Below, piece by piece: positions 38,574 through 46,197 of a stretch of DNA of 64,000 nucleotides. A program made the translations under genes and the position numbers. How positions within the stretch are numbered: the stretch's first letter is position 1; each line of letters begins with the position of its first letter. The DNA is taken from contig JAHLKT010000001.1 in the NCBI GenBank assembly GCA_020444545.1, positions 806,001 through 870,000 on the forward strand. Direction: 5' to 3'. Below the pieces are notes generated by a model, which searched no databases, was not told the origin of the DNA, and saw only the letters and a program-made list of their open reading frames with translations. The stretch comes from Desulfarculaceae bacterium (lineage in GTDB: Bacteria; Desulfobacterota; Desulfarculia; Desulfarculales; Desulfarculaceae).

Positions 38574-39098
38574 CTAGTCGCGGTCCTTGTAGGACTCCCA
38601 GTCCTGGGTCTGGTAGGCGCCGTCGGCCACGAAGCGCATGGCCTGGGTCAGGCGCTTGCGGTCCAGATAGCCGGTGAGCCTGAGCACCGGCTTGCCCGCC
38701 GGGCTCAGGAAAACCATGGTGGGCACCTGCTTGATGGCGTATTGCTCGCCCACCTTCTCTTCCTCGCTGATGTCCACCATGACCAGGTCGAACTTGGAAC
38801 TCATCAGGGCCGAGACCGCCGGGTCCGGGAAGACCAGGCGCTGCATCTTGCGGCAGAGGTAGCACCATGGGGCGGAAAAGTAGATGAGCACCGGCTTGGC
38901 CACCTGGCGGCCGGGGCGCATCACCGCGGCGTGGCTCTGCCACTTGAGGAGCGAGGGCTCCTGGGCCGTGGCCGGAGCGGCCAGGCAGATCAGGACCAGG
39001 AGCAAGAGGCAAAAAGCCACCCGCCGGCCCCTCCCGGCTGCGAGGGGGGGTGAGCCGGGAAGGACCGGGGGGGCAAGGAGACTAAAGGAAGCGCGCAC
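38574..39098 (-). CDS. Exported thioredoxin-fold protein (downstream paralogue)
   Basis: This protein of up to 174 residues has a hydrophobic signal (VAFCLLLLVLICLAAPATAQ) and a thioredoxin fold with active site APWCYLCRKM (CYLC) and cis-Pro in IKQVPTMVF. It starts 4 bases after the stop of its paralogue if the first GTG is used; an internal GTG at 39020 after GGGAGG is an alternative. The C-terminus AYQTQDWESYKDRD closely matches that of its neighbour. It may act in periplasmic thiol-disulfide exchange or thiol reduction for a redox protein. Confidence 0.78.
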   Translation of the reverse strand: MRASFSLLAPPVLPGSPPLAAGRGRRVAFCLLLLVLICLAAPATAQEPSLLKWQSHAAVMRPGRQVAKPVLIYFSAPWCYLCRKMQRLVFPDPAVSALMSSKFDLVMVDISEEEKVGEQYAIKQVPTMVFLSPAGKPVLRLTGYLDRKRLTQAMRFVADGAYQTQDWESYKDRD

Positions 39099-39102
39099 CG
39101 GA

Positions 39103-39564
39103 TCAGTCGCTTTTCCGGTACGAGTCCCAGGTTTGGCTTTGGTAGGCCTTGCTGGAAACGTAAGAAAGCAGCTTCAGGAAGCGCTCCGGACCAAAGACGC
39201 CCTTGGTCCGGAACACCTCCTTGCCCCCAGCGTCAAAAAAGATGTAGCTGGGGGTGTAGTCGGTGTTGAACTTCTTACCCAAGGCGGGGGCCTTTTCCAG
39301 GTCCACCTTGACCGGGACGAAGCCGGCGTTGAGACGCTTGATCACCCCCGCCTGGCTGTAGGTCTTGCGTTTCATTTCCTTGCAGCGGTAGCAGTAGGGC
39401 AGGTGGAAGTAGACCAGCATGGGCTTGGCCGCTTTCTGCTGGGCCGCCACCCCGGCCTGGTAATCCAACCAATGCACGCCCCCGGCCAGGGCCGGGGCGG
39501 CCGTCAGGCCCAGGGCCAACACGGCCAGGGCCGCCAGGAAAGCTATGCCGTTGCGCCGTCTCAT
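39103..39564 (-). CDS. Exported thioredoxin-fold protein (upstream paralogue)
   Basis: This 153-residue protein has a signal peptide (RRRNGIAFLAALAVLALGL, cleavage near ALAGG) and a thioredoxin-like domain with LPYCYRCKEMKRKTY (CYRC active site) and YTPSYIFFDAGG (cis-Pro). It lies 21 bases downstream of the FadL-type porin gene and just upstream of its paralogue, all on the minus strand. The C-terminal AYQSQTWDSYRKSD is shared with the paralogue. Confidence 0.8.
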   Translation of the reverse strand: MRRRNGIAFLAALAVLALGLTAAPALAGGVHWLDYQAGVAAQQKAAKPMLVYFHLPYCYRCKEMKRKTYSQAGVIKRLNAGFVPVKVDLEKAPALGKKFNTDYTPSYIFFDAGGKEVFRTKGVFGPERFLKLLSYVSSKAYQSQTWDSYRKSD

Positions 39565-39585
39565 CGCCTCTCCTCGTCAATGCTC

Positions 39586-40842
39586 CTAGAAGCGCCAGGA
39601 AACCATGAAGTGCACCGTGTCCTGATAGTGGCTCACCTCGGTGCCCGCGAAGGGGTTGGTGGGGCTGGGCGCGCCGGTGTTGGTCTGGCTGTTGCTGAAA
39701 GCGTGCTCCAAGGCGAAGTCGAAGTCCCAATCGCCGTAGGAGAAGGTGAAGCCGCCGGTAAGGTGGTGCTCCACGATGGCCGGGAACAGGGGGTTCAGGG
39801 TGTTGTCGGGCACCGGGTTCTGGCCGTAGTTATAGCCGGCCCGCACGGTCCACATGTCGTTGATCTCGTACTGGGCGCCCAGGGCGAAGACCCACTGGTC
39901 TTTCCAGTCCATGATGAAGGGCACGCTGAGGTTCTGGTAGCCCGCGGGCACCGGGGTGCTGGGGTTGGAGGCGGTAACGGTCACGGTCTGGATGGCGCTG
40001 GCCCAGTTGACCCAGCTCACGTCAAAGGCGAAGAGCCATTTGGTGGTGGGCCGGAAGCTCACCCCGAACTCCACCTGACGGGGCCAGGTGAAGTTGTCCA
40101 TCTTGGCGTCCCTGTAGGTGACCTGGCCCAGGCCGGGACCGAAGTTGAAGCGCATCTCGCCGTCGTCGAAGTCCAGGGAGCTTTCGCTGGTGTAGGTGGC
40201 GCCGATGGCCCACTGCTCGTTGATCTGGTAGTTGGCCCCGAAGCGGCCGGCGATGGTGAAGGAGTTCAGGCCGGTGACGTGCTGGCCCTGCACCCCGTTG
40301 GGGAAGAAGTCGTAGTCGATGGAGGCGTAGCCGGCAAAGGCGGTGACGCCTAGAGTCAGGCTGTTGGTCACGTTATAGGCCACGGTGGGGGCCAGGCGCA
40401 TGAAGGCCACCTGGGAGTACAGGCTGTCGTTGGCTCCCTGGAAGTTCTTCACGTTCTGGAAATCCACGCCCATGCCGCCCTGGGCGAAGATGCCCACGCC
40501 CCAGGACCAGCGGCTGGTGCCGATGCGCTGGGCATAGCCCGCGAAAGGCAGGGGGAAGACCTGGAACTCGTTGTCCACCGCCGAGGCGTAGGGCATGTCC
40601 ACCTGCATCTGGGGGTTGAGCAGCGCGCCGCCCACGCTCACCACCCGGTTACAGGTGGTGGCCAGCTGGGCCGGGTTGCCCGCGATGGCGGTGCAGCCGG
40701 CGGGCACGGCCACGTCGGCCCCGCCCATGCCCGAGGACACCGCGCCGGTGCCGATCATGTTCATGCCGTTGGTGGCCAGGGCCATGCCGGGTACGGCCAG
40801 CACCATGGCCAAGGCCAGAAAGGCTCCCAAAACCTTTTTCAT
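39586..40842 (-). CDS. OmpP1/FadL/TodX-type outer membrane channel
   Basis: This 418-residue beta-barrel has a signal peptide (MKKVLGAFLALAMVLAVPG, cleavage near ALA-TN). The mature N-terminus TNGMNMIGTGAVSSGMGGADVA is shown in pieces: the GTG/GMGGA pattern is the FadL N-terminal hatch. The C-terminus ends HYQDTVHFMVSWRF, with a terminal aromatic residue as in outer membrane proteins. It likely admits hydrophobic compounds such as fatty acids or aromatics. GAAAGGA lies about 8 bases before the ATG. Two thioredoxin-fold genes follow. Confidence 0.88.
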   Translation of the reverse strand: MKKVLGAFLALAMVLAVPGMALATNGMNMIGTGAVSSGMGGADVAVPAGCTAIAGNPAQLATTCNRVVSVGGALLNPQMQVDMPYASAVDNEFQVFPLPFAGYAQRIGTSRWSWGVGIFAQGGMGVDFQNVKNFQGANDSLYSQVAFMRLAPTVAYNVTNSLTLGVTAFAGYASIDYDFFPNGVQGQHVTGLNSFTIAGRFGANYQINEQWAIGATYTSESSLDFDDGEMRFNFGPGLGQVTYRDAKMDNFTWPRQVEFGVSFRPTTKWLFAFDVSWVNWASAIQTVTVTASNPSTPVPAGYQNLSVPFIMDWKDQWVFALGAQYEINDMWTVRAGYNYGQNPVPDNTLNPLFPAIVEHHLTGGFTFSYGDWDFDFALEHAFSNSQTNTGAPSPTNPFAGTEVSHYQDTVHFMVSWRF

Positions 40843-40955
40843 GTCGATTCCTTTCGTACTACTCCCATGAGTTAAGTCGAGTTATAGGAACCGCCCATTT
40901 GCCCCTCCGGTTCCTCCGGCCCGGCCTAGCCGCCGGGCCCCTCCTTATATGTTTC

Positions 40956-40981
40956 GGGCGGCGGGAACCGGCCCGCCGCCC
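40956..40981. terminator. GC-rich hairpin between DsrE-like and FadL-type genes
   Basis: GGGCGGCGGG and CCCGCCGCCC form a ten-base-pair stem with a six-base loop just after the stop of the minus-strand DsrE-like gene. There is no clear T-tract, so the terminator call is tentative. Confidence 0.4.
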
Positions 40982-40991
40982 GATAGCGCCT

Positions 40992-41534
40992 TTATACGAA
41001 TAAGGTGATGTTGCAGCCGGTGGCATAGTTCAGGAAGGTGGCTGCCCCTCCCAGGTCGATGTCATCGATGAGATCCTCGCGCTTGACGCCCATCACGTCC
41101 ATGGTCATCTGGCAAGCGATCAGGTCCACCTCGGTCTCGACGCACATCTCCAGCAGCTCGGGAATGCTGGGCACGCCCACCTTGCCCATCCAGCCGTTCA
41201 TCATCTTGGTGGCCATGGCGGTCATGCCCGGCAACATGCCGATGATGTTGGGCACCGGCACGGGCATGGCCGGGTTGCCCACCGGGGGCACGCCCAGCTT
41301 GTGGTTCTTTTTCTTGTTCAGAATGTCCAGGCCGTAAAAGGTGAAGAAGACCTGGCAGGGAATGTCCAGGGCCGCGCAGGTGGTGGCCAGGATCAGAGGC
41401 GGATAGGCCATGTCCAGGCTGCCCTTGGAGGCAATGATCGCCGCTTTGGAATTTTTCTTGAGGGCCGACTCCAGTTGGGAGCCTACGGCTTTTTGCACCG
41501 CCTCGTCGATGTAGCTCTGAATCTCCTGATCCAT
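40992..41534 (-). CDS. DsrE/F/DrsH-like (DsrE2) protein
   Basis: This 180-residue protein matches the DsrE2/DrsH-like family often annotated as peroxiredoxin-like. KAAIIASKGSLDMAYPPLI is the fold's first strand and helix. FYGLDILNKKKN and the conserved cysteines in LEMCVETEVDLIACQMTMDVMG are typical. A cysteine at the end of the ACQM segment could carry a persulfide. The ATG follows GGGGAGG by 8 bases. It lies 28 bases downstream of an ArsR-type regulator, which probably controls it. Confidence 0.85.
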   Translation of the reverse strand: MDQEIQSYIDEAVQKAVGSQLESALKKNSKAAIIASKGSLDMAYPPLILATTCAALDIPCQVFFTFYGLDILNKKKNHKLGVPPVGNPAMPVPVPNIIGMLPGMTAMATKMMNGWMGKVGVPSIPELLEMCVETEVDLIACQMTMDVMGVKREDLIDDIDLGGAATFLNYATGCNITLFV

Positions 41535-41562
41535 GTTAACAACCTCCCCTCGCGTGGACGGC

Positions 41563-41877
41563 TCAGCGGCCGTCCACCACTTGTTTGGCATCCTGGGAAC
41601 GTGCCGCGGTTTCGCGGACGCATTGAATTATCTTGTAAATTTCGGGCCGGGCGATGCTGTAGTACATGCAAGCCCCTTCGCGCCGGGCATCGAGCAACCC
41701 GCGCATACGCATGGCCTTGAGGTGCTGGCTGGTGGCCGACTGGGTGGCCCCGATGGCCTGGCTGATCCCTCCCACGTTGAGCTCTCCCGGCTCCAGGCAC
41801 TGGGCGATTCGGATGCGCAGCGGGTGACCCATCACCTTGAACATTTCGGCCGCCTCGTTGAGGAAGTTATCGTCCAT
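41563..41877 (-). CDS. ArsR/SmtB-family transcriptional regulator
   Basis: This 104-residue winged-helix repressor has an HTH in ISQAIGATQSATSQHLKAM followed by the wing GLLDARREGACMYYSI. Cysteines occur in the alpha-2 region (IAQCLEPGEL) and at GACMYYS. These could form a thiol/disulfide or persulfide switch, as in sulfur-sensing ArsR proteins such as BigR or SqrR. The classic metal site ELCVC of ArsR is absent. It is first in an operon with the DsrE2-like gene and probably represses its own promoter. Confidence 0.88.
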   Translation of the reverse strand: MDDNFLNEAAEMFKVMGHPLRIRIAQCLEPGELNVGGISQAIGATQSATSQHLKAMRMRGLLDARREGACMYYSIARPEIYKIIQCVRETAARSQDAKQVVDGR

Positions 41878-41915
41878 CAACCCCTCTCCCTAACTTTAAC
41901 TTTTATTTTGCACTA

Positions 41916-41944
41916 TTCTTATATGGCAATATTAATATATGCAA
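41916..41944 (-). promoter_or_regulatory. Promoter with embedded palindromic operator for arsR-dsrE2
   Basis: On the minus strand TTGCAT (-35) and overlapping TATAAG/TAAGAA (-10) flank a perfect ten-base palindrome ATATTAATAT (41929-41938), with GCA/TGC triplets just outside. A palindrome between the promoter boxes is the normal position for an ArsR-type operator. Confidence 0.5.
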
Positions 41945-41977
41945 CTAAAAAGATATCTACCATAATCCCTATACCTA

Positions 41978-41995
41978 TATTCTCATTGGAGAATA
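41978..41995. promoter_or_regulatory. Inverted repeat upstream of arsR / after selenoprotein gene
   Basis: TATTCTC-ATTG-GAGAATA is a perfect 7+4+7 inverted repeat. It lies 20 bases after the stop of the selenoprotein gene and about 100 bases upstream of arsR. It may be a second regulator site or the 3' hairpin of the selenoprotein mRNA. No T-tract follows. Confidence 0.4.
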
Positions 41996-42014
41996 GGCCT
42001 GAAACAACTATTTG

Positions 42015-42638
42015 TTAGAGGAAAATGCCCCCGCTCTGGGCGCCCCGCACCAGGCGCTTGAGCTCGGGATAGGGCTGTGCCCCCACCAGACCCCGGCCGT
42101 TGCACACGAAGGTGGGCACCGCGCTGATCCCCAAGGATCGGGCGAATTCCCAGTCCGCGTCTATCGCCTTGGCGTAAGCTCCCGATTCCACAACCTCAAC
42201 CGCCTTGGCCGGGTCCAGGCCCGCCTTGGCGGCCAGCCCGGCCAACACCTCTATGTCCCACAGGTTGAGCCCGTCGGCGAAATAGGCGCGGAAAGCTGCG
42301 TCGTGGTAGGCCGGGCCCACGCCCTGGGCCTCGGCGTACTTGCCCAGCTCTTGGGCGCGGCGGCTGTTGAAGGTCGTGGTGCGGTTGCCCAGGGGAAGGC
42401 CCTCGGCGTTGGCCGCGGCCCGGAGGCGCTCCATCATGGCCGGGATGTCCTTGCCGCTGCCGGCAAAGAGCTGCTCCAGGCTCTGGCCCTGGGGCGGGGT
42501 CTCGGGGTGCAGGGGGAAGGCGATCCACTTGACGGTCACGCCCTCCTCCGCCTGAAGCCGTTCTATACGCCCGGTACAGAAATAGCACCAGGGTCAGATG
42601 TAGTCCGAGAATACCTCGATGGCAAGGGGCTCAAGCAT
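42015..42638 (-). CDS. FrnE/DsbA-family oxidoreductase, selenoprotein with in-frame TGA (UPWC active site)
   Basis: Translating from the ATG that follows a perfect AGGAGG gives MLEPLAIEVFSDYI, then TGA (42594-42596), then PWCYFCTGRIERLQAEEG, then continues in the same frame as a normal FrnE-like domain to the C-terminus (GISAVPTFVCNGRGLVGAQ). FrnE-family proteins have CPWC exactly here, so TGA replaces the first active-site cysteine and should be read as selenocysteine (U15, with Cys18 as partner). Total length is 207 residues, normal for the family. A SECIS-type hairpin follows the TGA. Conventional gene calling would give a truncated 174-residue protein from an internal GTG at 42539. The enzyme is cytoplasmic (no signal peptide). 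It is last in a DsrE, LUD, FrnE unit. Confidence 0.88.
42561..42596 (-). promoter_or_regulatory. Bacterial SECIS-type element with its UGA codon
   Basis: On the minus strand the UGA is followed by 12 bases, then UUCUGUAC, loop CGGGC and GUAUAGAA. This is an uninterrupted eight-base-pair stem including one G-U pair. The loop begins 21 bases after the UGA and contains GGG. Bacterial SECIS elements are known to place a small apical loop with guanines roughly 16-37 bases downstream of the UGA, so both spacing and loop fit. Confidence 0.8.
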
Positions 42639-42745
42639 GGGGCCTCCTATGGATGGCGGTTCATTTAATAATGTATCGCGATAAGGGAGGCGGGGCAAAC
42701 CGGAAGCGGACCGCCCGAAGAAACGAGGGCGCTTGAAGGGTGCGC

Positions 42746-42771
42746 GGCTGGGGCGGATGGCCGCCCCAGCC
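42746..42771. other. Perfect hairpin between LUD and selenoprotein genes
   Basis: GGCTGGGGCGG and CCGCCCCAGCC form an eleven-base-pair stem with an ATGG loop, 13 bases after the LUD-gene stop. No T-tract follows on the minus strand. It may partly terminate or stabilise the mRNA between the two genes. Confidence 0.5.
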
Positions 42772-42783
42772 GAAGCCATATAA

Positions 42784-43428
42784 TTAGTAGCCCAGTTCCT
42801 CGCCCACCAGGATCACGTGGGTGCGGCCCGGGACCATGGAGCCCTCGGTGATGCTCCAGAAGTTGCAGATGCGCTTTGGCGCCCTACAGTCGGCGCAGAG
42901 GCCGTTGATGGTGCAGGGGGTCTCGCAGTTGATGCGCGCGGCGTTCACCGGGGCGGCGTAGTGCTTCACCCGGGCCATGGCGCTCTCCAGGTCCGGGGCC
43001 ACCTTGTTCATGCCCACCACCAACACCACCTTGGCCGGGCCGAAGGCCATGGCCGCCACCCGGTTGCCCATGCCGTCCAGGTTCACCAAACGGCCGTCCA
43101 GGGTGATGGCGTTGGAGGAGGCCACCATCACGTCGGCGGTGAGGCCCTGGCGCCGCAGGGCCATGCCCTGGGCGGGCTCCAGGCCGGGCTGGTAGGGGTC
43201 GATCACCTCCACGTCCTCCACGGCGGCGATGGCCTCCCACAGGCCCAGCTCGCCGGTGGTCATGGAGCCGCAGCGGAAGACCTTCTGGCCGGGCTTGATG
43301 AACTCGAGCACCTTGGCCTTGGCCGCCGCGCCGTCCGGGGCGTAGCTGCCCTCCATGCGGCGTTTTTCCAGCCAACCGATGATCCCGGCGGCCACCTTTT
43401 CGTTCCAGGCCTTCTGATGCGCGTCCAT
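42784..43428 (-). CDS. LUD-domain protein (LutC/YkgG type)
   Basis: This 214-residue protein matches the LUD domain family: VFRCGSMTTGELGLWEAI, VMVASSNAITLDGRLVNLDG in pieces, and the C-terminal cysteines INCETPCTINGLCADCRAPKRIC, which may bind an iron-sulfur cluster. LutC takes part in L-lactate oxidation with LutA and LutB, but those are absent, so another redox role is likely. The cysteine-rich tail is typical of the stand-alone LUD proteins in anaerobes. AGGAGGTG precedes the ATG. It sits between a DsrE-like gene and the selenoprotein gene. Confidence 0.85.
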   Translation of the reverse strand: MDAHQKAWNEKVAAGIIGWLEKRRMEGSYAPDGAAAKAKVLEFIKPGQKVFRCGSMTTGELGLWEAIAAVEDVEVIDPYQPGLEPAQGMALRRQGLTADVMVASSNAITLDGRLVNLDGMGNRVAAMAFGPAKVVLVVGMNKVAPDLESAMARVKHYAAPVNAARINCETPCTINGLCADCRAPKRICNFWSITEGSMVPGRTHVILVGEELGY

Positions 43429-43469
43429 GTCACCTCCTGCTAGCTATGCTGATATGGTTTAAAAAGCTC

Positions 43470-43817
43470 CTAAAAAGTTAGCACCGGCAGCCCGCTTTGC
43501 AAGTAGCCGGTCAGTGGCTGGCCCATGTAGATCACCTCGATGCCCAGCGACTCCAAGCGCTCGCTGACCCCGTAGCGGTCGGCGCAGGCCCGGCAGGCCA
43601 AGAGCTCCACCCCCGCCTCCTTGAGCGCCTCCAGCTCGGCCTGCAGCTCGGCGTCCTCGGCGATGAGCGAGGCCGAGGGCCCCCACACCACCAGGCGCAC
43701 CTTGGGCCACCAGCCCTTGAGGCGCGAGTTCTTGGCGTACATGAAGACCATGTTTTTGGCTACCTCGCGGTCGCGGCTGGTCCAGATGATAACCAGGGTG
43801 TCTTTTTCCGTGCTCAT
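43470..43817 (-). CDS. DsrE-family protein
   Basis: This 115-residue DsrE-fold protein has LVIIWTSRDREVAKNMVFMY at the N-terminus, LVVWGPSASLI in the second strand and LLACRACADRYGVSERL carrying two cysteines spaced CxxC. It is the first gene of the minus-strand DsrE, LUD, FrnE unit. Family members carry or transfer sulfane sulfur; the target here is unknown. Confidence 0.82.
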   Translation of the reverse strand: MSTEKDTLVIIWTSRDREVAKNMVFMYAKNSRLKGWWPKVRLVVWGPSASLIAEDAELQAELEALKEAGVELLACRACADRYGVSERLESLGIEVIYMGQPLTGYLQSGLPVLTF

Positions 43818-45452: not shown

Positions 45453-45495
45453 GGGGGTCCGGGCCTGCGGGCCTGGGCCCCCCCTCCCCTCTTTT
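45453..45495 (+). terminator. Weak terminator or attenuator between two small genes
   Basis: GGGGGTCC and GGGCCCCC, with a nested GGCC/GGCC pair, form a GC-rich hairpin followed by TCCCCTCTTTT. It may reduce read-through from the sigma-54 transcript into the YHS gene. Confidence 0.35.
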
Positions 45496-45511
45496 GCCAA
45501 GGAGGCCGCCC

Positions 45512-45757
45512 ATGACTCAGACCATCCGCAGCACCGAGCCCTGTCCGGTGTGCAATATGCCGGTGGACACCCGCCACACCGAGCTGGTGGCCCAGCGCGA
45601 GGGGCGTGTGTACTTCTTCTGCGCCCCGGGCTGCCGCGACAAATTCCTGTCCGAACCCTGCTGCGCCCAGCCCAAGGGCTGGTGGGGCCGCTTCCTGGAC
45701 CGCCTCGCCCGGGCCAACGACAAGGAGTTCGGCGAGGGCGGGGCCCACTGCCATTAG
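45512..45757 (+). CDS. YHS (TRASH-like) domain protein
   Basis: This 81-residue protein has the YHS-type metal-binding pattern: PCPVCNMPVDTRHTEL, then VYFFCAPGCRDKFLSEP, followed by CCAQP and a His/Cys C-terminus (GGAHCH). YHS domains bind copper or iron and often serve as metallochaperones or transporter modules. AAGGAGG precedes the ATG. It lies downstream of the exported small protein and may share its sigma-54 transcript. Confidence 0.82.
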   Translation: MTQTIRSTEPCPVCNMPVDTRHTELVAQREGRVYFFCAPGCRDKFLSEPCCAQPKGWWGRFLDRLARANDKEFGEGGAHCH

Positions 45758-45855: not shown

Positions 45856-46197
45856 CTAGCAGGCGCCGCAGCAGCCGTCACCGCAGCCGCCGCCGGTCCC
45901 GCAGCTCTCGGGCTGGGGAAGGGGGTTGGCGCTGGTGAGCAGGAAGCCCTGCTGGTTGTCCTCGTTGATGAAGTCCAACTTCACGTCGCCCACGGTATCG
46001 GCCAGATCCTTCTGGATCACGAAGTCCACGCCGTCCACCGCATAGGTCTCGTCGCCGTCACGGGCCTGGTCCACGCCCAGGGCCAACTGCGCGCCGCCGC
46101 AACCACTCTGCATGAAGATGCGGATGGGGGGCTCGAGGTTTTTTTCGGCCATAACCGTCTTGAGGGCCTGGCTGGCCTCGGGGGTCATTTCCATCAT
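45856..46197 (-). CDS. HesB/IscA-like protein with Cys-rich tail
   Basis: This 113-residue protein has the A-type carrier fold: IRIFMQSGCGGAQLALGVD and GVDFVIQKDLAD. The tail SCGTGGGCGDGCCGAC has five cysteines, more than the usual CGCGxS. A-type carriers pass Fe-S clusters or bind iron; stand-alone HesB-like proteins in anaerobes have less certain roles. A second ATG follows directly. It is downstream of the HdrD/MvhD-type genes. Confidence 0.85.
   Translation of the reverse strand: MMEMTPEASQALKTVMAEKNLEPPIRIFMQSGCGGAQLALGVDQARDGDETYAVDGVDFVIQKDLADTVGDVKLDFINEDNQQGFLLTSANPLPQPESCGTGGGCGDGCCGAC

Follow-up and report, generated by a model that had tools for sequence, protein, structure and literature searches.

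The window analysed here is a 64,000-nucleotide stretch of a Desulfarculaceae bacterium genome (assembly GCA_020444545.1, contig JAHLKT010000001.1, positions 806,001 to 870,000), and all coordinates refer to it. Its minus strand carries a gene for a FrnE/DsbA-like protein of 207 residues with a predicted selenocysteine (42015-42638), which runs from an ATG (42638-42636) to a TAA (42017-42015). A Shine-Dalgarno sequence, AGGAGG (42643-42648, minus strand), can be read directly 4 nt 5' of the ATG: ATAGGAGGCCCCATG. The codons from the ATG to an in-frame TGA are MLEPLAIEVFSDYI; those after the TGA (42596-42594) begin PWCYFCTGRIERL... and continue up to the TAA. With the TGA read as U, the 207-residue product begins MLEPLAIEVFSDYIUPWCYFCTGRIERL..., so that codon 15 (42594-42596, minus) supplies the predicted selenocysteine, the U of a UPWC motif. 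The resolving cysteine of this motif is encoded by a TGC at codon 18 (42585-42587, minus) and forms an invariant alignment column (C18), as does Pro175 of the VPT loop (P175; 42114-42116, minus), which we take to be at the cis-proline position of the thioredoxin fold, the cis conformation being that known for the family. The original prediction, which had followed a frame from AGGAGG and ATG through the TGA into PWCYFCTG, was borne out, with the minus strand, unstated there, now added. It had also held that standard annotation would truncate the protein and remove its active site, and the list of table-11 open reading frames agrees: for this gene it contains only a 61-aa frame that stops at the TGA and a 174-aa frame with a GTG start (42539-42015), so the active site is lost in standard gene calling.

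The gene lies within the order DsrE - LUD - FrnE - ArsR - DsrE2 - FadL-like - thioredoxin-fold, which occupies 38574-43817 on the minus strand. Upstream is a LUD-domain protein (42784-43428, minus); directly downstream is an ArsR/SmtB-family regulator (41563-41880, minus), an arrangement that only part of the genus shares, followed by a DsrE2-like sulfur carrier protein (40992-41591, minus), whose true start may be nearer 41534. The order from DsrE to the thioredoxin-fold gene is kept at two loci of the genus (L025, L028) and in shorter stretches at two more (L026, L066). It is not shown by two others of the same genus (L068, L071) nor by the tested loci outside it, so the arrangement gives only a hint that the FrnE gene is tied to sulfur or metal handling. 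A scan for sigma-70 promoters around the gene found none, and the matches from a plasmid search all stayed under 60% identity. When the window was scanned for other in-frame-TGA selenoproteins with GC3 and Sec-motif filters, no convincing second case emerged, a result that carries no negative weight because the GC3 filter overlooked the FrnE gene itself. Elsewhere in the window, an IscA/HesB-family protein (45856-46197, minus) passes the NF038090 (IscA_HesB_Se) model with Cys instead of Sec, and a YHS-domain protein (45494-45757, plus) bears a C-terminal LDCC-type putative metal-binding motif.

The read-through product matches Pfam DSBA (1.5e-36, residues 7-195) and, from residue 3 onwards, Deinococcus radiodurans FrnE in the PDB (1.4e-24). 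Since both matches span the TGA, the read-through frame is not a chance one. In the alignment U15 takes the place of the first Cys in the Deinococcus CPWC, in keeping with the earlier claim that the TGA sits exactly where the first CxxC cysteine belongs. An AlphaFold2 model built with 20 homologues has a thioredoxin/DsbA fold with a helix from residue 16 (mean pLDDT 94.3, pTM 0.89), and Foldseek ranked D. radiodurans FrnE structures first for it (TMq 0.88), followed by Streptomyces coelicolor SCO1869. The protein has the features of the FrnE subfamily (COG2761/cd03024), namely a DSBA-like thioredoxin domain with an N-terminal CPWC-type motif in which U replaces the first C, and also the PF01323 domain with UxxC of the DsbA-like selenoprotein form 1. 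The C-terminal CxxxxC, common in FrnE proteins without defining them, is absent from the 207-aa sequence. The domain starts at residue 6, which would leave no space for a signal peptide. None of the NCBIfam models passed its cut-off with the window protein, which may explain the truncated annotation of such genes; as they are also lost in standard ORF calling, they are probably missed in many genomes.

We considered whether the product actually used might begin at the internal GTG and so have no redox centre. The 174-aa frame makes such a start available, but its product would start too late to include the first strand and the helix at the active site, both part of what is predicted as a single fold, and the codons 5' of the TGA are kept in relatives together with a purine-rich ribosome site; we hold this reading to be very improbable.

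The TGA is a property of the gene across its relatives. A homologue occurs in 13 of the 21 genomes of the order, each time with exactly one in-frame TGA (13/13), and when 395 genomes of the phylum were sampled, every one of the 48 best-scoring places bore the TGA, with TGA-less places scoring lower. After removal of duplicates, 70 distinct homologue loci have TGA and 35 have TGC or TGT at the aligned codon. The latter, mostly more distant than the TGA homologues, answer the check proposed with the original prediction: when Cys homologues of FrnE are aligned, their Cys codon falls at the TGA position. TGA bearers include Desulfarculaceae, Syntrophobacteraceae and Geomonas; Cys bearers include Desulfosarcina cetonica, a Desulfobulbaceae MAG and two Geobacteraceae MAGs. 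On an unrooted maximum-likelihood tree of 104 proteins the Sec label changes 8 times, at least 6 of these changes being forced by well-supported branches, against a mean of 28.8 for shuffled labels; Sec and Cys have thus been exchanged repeatedly. We regard as unlikely a more far-reaching scenario, in which the FrnE branch would be a Desulfobacterota-wide selenoprotein whose Sec may be older, the Cys copies (Geobacteraceae L039/L040 and L118/L119) having arisen by Sec-to-Cys reversion, and whose role within the genus would lie in an ArsR-regulated sulfur/selenium-handling cluster (DsrE2, DsrE, LUD and thioredoxin-like genes), its substrates there being persulfide or selenide species and not protein disulfides. 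A second, more distant FrnE-like branch of the same phylum (L121-L139, 12 loci) has UPFC or UPYC, also with an in-frame TGA, and shows its own strongly constrained codon choice 3' of the TGA.

Shortly after the UGA the transcript is predicted to form a hairpin. Its conserved part is an upper stem-loop of bacterial SECIS type, UCUGUAC-CGGGC-GUAUAGA (42562-42580, minus), which starts 13 nt after the UGA. The whole hairpin (42549-42593, minus) has a minimum free energy of -17.5 kcal/mol when the 51 nt beginning at the UGA are folded; conservation among relatives does not extend to its lower stem, which was rejected as a conserved part of the SECIS. As a single sequence the hairpin is moderately more stable than 200 shuffles (z-score -1.71), so the case for a SECIS rests on comparison. 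With columns numbered from the U of UGA, the 7-bp upper stem (columns 17-23 with 29-35) is paired at 93.7% in 57 distinct UPWC TGA sequences, above all 2,000 shuffles (mean 84.0%, maximum 87.5%), and pairing in these sequences falls to 21-49% when the partner is shifted by 1-3 columns. The same columns in the 35 Cys sequences are 61.2% paired, within the range of their shuffles (mean 57.6%, maximum 64.5%). Column pair 19-33 is paired in 93% of cases (58% expected) and pair 21-31 in 98% (82% expected); on the tree, the partner in pair 21-31 changes with it in 5-6 of 6 independent contrasts, and never in the opposite way. These changes are informative because synonymous positions are involved: codon 21 TGT occurs with codon 25 ATA or ATG, AGT/ATT mostly with ATT, and GGT with ACC. 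The hairpin codons of the window gene are uncommon in nine neighbouring genes (ATA, 5/95 Ile; TGT, 3/45 Cys; CGT). Unconstrained folding forms most of the upper stem in 24 of the 57 TGA sequences and in one of the 35 Cys sequences. The criterion given for bacterial SECIS elements in PMC1088965 is a small apical loop containing G shortly after the UGA; here the G-containing loop CGGGC lies 20 nt past it. A cmscan of the window returned no match in Rfam, so no Rfam SECIS family reaches threshold there.

The genes expected of a selenocysteine user are present in the genome, which comprises 4.38 Mb in 11 contigs. All four sel genes named for checking in the original prediction were found: selA (E 7e-159, 466-aa ORF), selB (E 4.5e-119, 647-aa ORF), selD (E 2.5e-113) and selC, the tRNA-Sec, with anticodon TCA, detected by both Infernal and ARAGORN. 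The selD gene (L021, G000:C1:335187-336113) is itself a Sec gene, in which a single in-frame TGA supplies the U of a UAAK motif, consistent with the UxxK motif given for Sec-SelD in a review (PMC13188914). SelB was found in 72 of the 79 homologue-bearing genomes searched and in 61 of the 65 with a TGA copy, three of the four exceptions being at most 85% complete. One TGA copy (L113, G212:C37) lies beside Cys copies on the tree, in a genome reported as 100% complete and with no selB match; contamination, a divergent SelB or recent loss are possible explanations.

These data also bear on the possibility that the UGA is decoded as another amino acid, as Trp through a variant code or as Cys. The frame would be open under any such code and Cys would fit the alignment, but TGA is an ordinary stop in neighbouring genes (the ion channel, one thioredoxin-like gene and ArsR), the full sel set with its tRNA-Sec is present, and the hairpin covaries in TGA genes, which is not seen in Cys genes. 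The Trp of the UPWC motif is itself encoded by TGG. The Trp reading is rejected, and we give decoding as any amino acid other than Sec hardly any credence.

A pseudogene with a real stop, or a miscalled base in a Cys gene, would suit a TGA one base away from TGC/TGT and a gene truncated under table-11 calling, but was rejected as having a negligible probability, given that 12 further genomes of the order share the same TGA and that it occurs at about 70 distinct loci overall, that dN is below dS on both sides of it (0.10 vs 0.57 upstream and 0.13 vs 0.38 downstream, against the closest relative), and that the gene has no further disruption. A miscall of TGC or TGT, the doubt raised with the original prediction, is excluded because independent genomes carry TGA at the same codon, and the low dN relative to dS shows that the part downstream of the TGA is under purifying selection.

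That the TGA is read as Sec, as originally proposed, is supported by the sel genes, the conservation of the TGA and the covarying SECIS, a feature that the original prediction had not looked for, from all of which we infer the insertion itself. On sequence evidence, the gene product is predicted to be a thiol-disulfide oxidoreductase of FrnE type (DsbA fold) that works in the cytoplasm and has the selenocysteine of U15-P-W-C18 as its nucleophile, a reading to which we assign a probability of roughly 0.96; the bacterium very probably makes a FrnE/DsbA-family redox enzyme with selenocysteine in place of the active-site cysteine.

In bacteria generally, Sec-tRNA is the product of SelA and SelD, and SelB, bound to the SECIS, carries it to the UGA. 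By analogy, SelB on the hairpin loop would bring Sec-tRNA to this UGA, so that translation would run on to all 207 residues. Comparison with D. radiodurans FrnE suggests that the protein probably works in the cytoplasm as a thiol-disulfide oxidoreductase, U15 being the nucleophile and C18 the resolving residue: the U15 selenolate would attack substrate disulfides or oxidised thiols, Cys18 would resolve the mixed selenosulfide, and a partner of thioredoxin or glutathione type would regenerate the enzyme. Such a partner is expected because the window protein has no CxxxxC, the motif with a proposed regeneration role in D. radiodurans FrnE (PMC8945050). The most likely role would be that of a reductase/isomerase under oxidative or metal stress.

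Among known proteins, the best match in both sequence and structure is D. radiodurans FrnE (PDB 5cnw/5co3), a disulfide reductase/isomerase of the cytoplasm; cadmium and diamide sensitivity is reported for its mutant (PMC8945050). The window protein and the Deinococcus one share the DsbA fold, an aligned CPWC position and, probably, a location in the cytoplasm; they differ in that the Deinococcus protein has Cys where the window protein has Sec and owns a C-terminal CxxxxC (residues 239-244), which is also missing from the FrnE proteins of S. roseofulvus and D. maricopensis (PMC8945050). S. coelicolor SCO1869 (PDB 3gl5) has a DsbA/FrnE-type fold with 33% identity in the structural alignment, but is described just as a probable DsbA oxidoreductase and is no known selenoprotein. 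The DsbG-like (seleno)lipoprotein family NF041057 is likewise a thioredoxin-fold selenoprotein family, but its weak match to the C-terminal part of the window protein (35.9 bits, with the cut-off at 190) covers residues 121-196 only and leaves the Sec site outside.

A literature search, judged by titles, listed no paper that gives the name 'FrnE' to a bacterial selenoprotein. The type itself is already known, since a 2005 Sargasso Sea survey describes nine 'DsbA-like' selenoproteins with UXXC and a bacterial SECIS, assigned to COG2761 (PMC1088965), the group to which D. radiodurans frnE (DR0659) is likewise assigned (PMC1978522). A 2006 compilation contains DsbA-like selenoproteins, some of Deltaproteobacteria included, and a 2026 review also lists them (PMC13188914). 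The excerpts of the 2005 and 2026 accounts (PMC1088965, PMC13188914) mention neither Desulfarculaceae nor UPWC. What is added here is a clear member, a wide distribution, the repeated Sec/Cys exchange, a well-supported clade-wide case in a DsbA-fold enzyme, and the missing NCBIfam model; the Sec and Cys homologues form a natural series in which selenium's contribution to a FrnE-type enzyme can be tested. Compared by description with form 1 of the 'DsbA-like' selenoproteins (COG2761/PF01323), the window protein shares the PF01323 fold, FrnE's COG, the UxxC motif and a SECIS just past the UGA, and it is a well-supported addition to a selenoprotein type reported since 2005.
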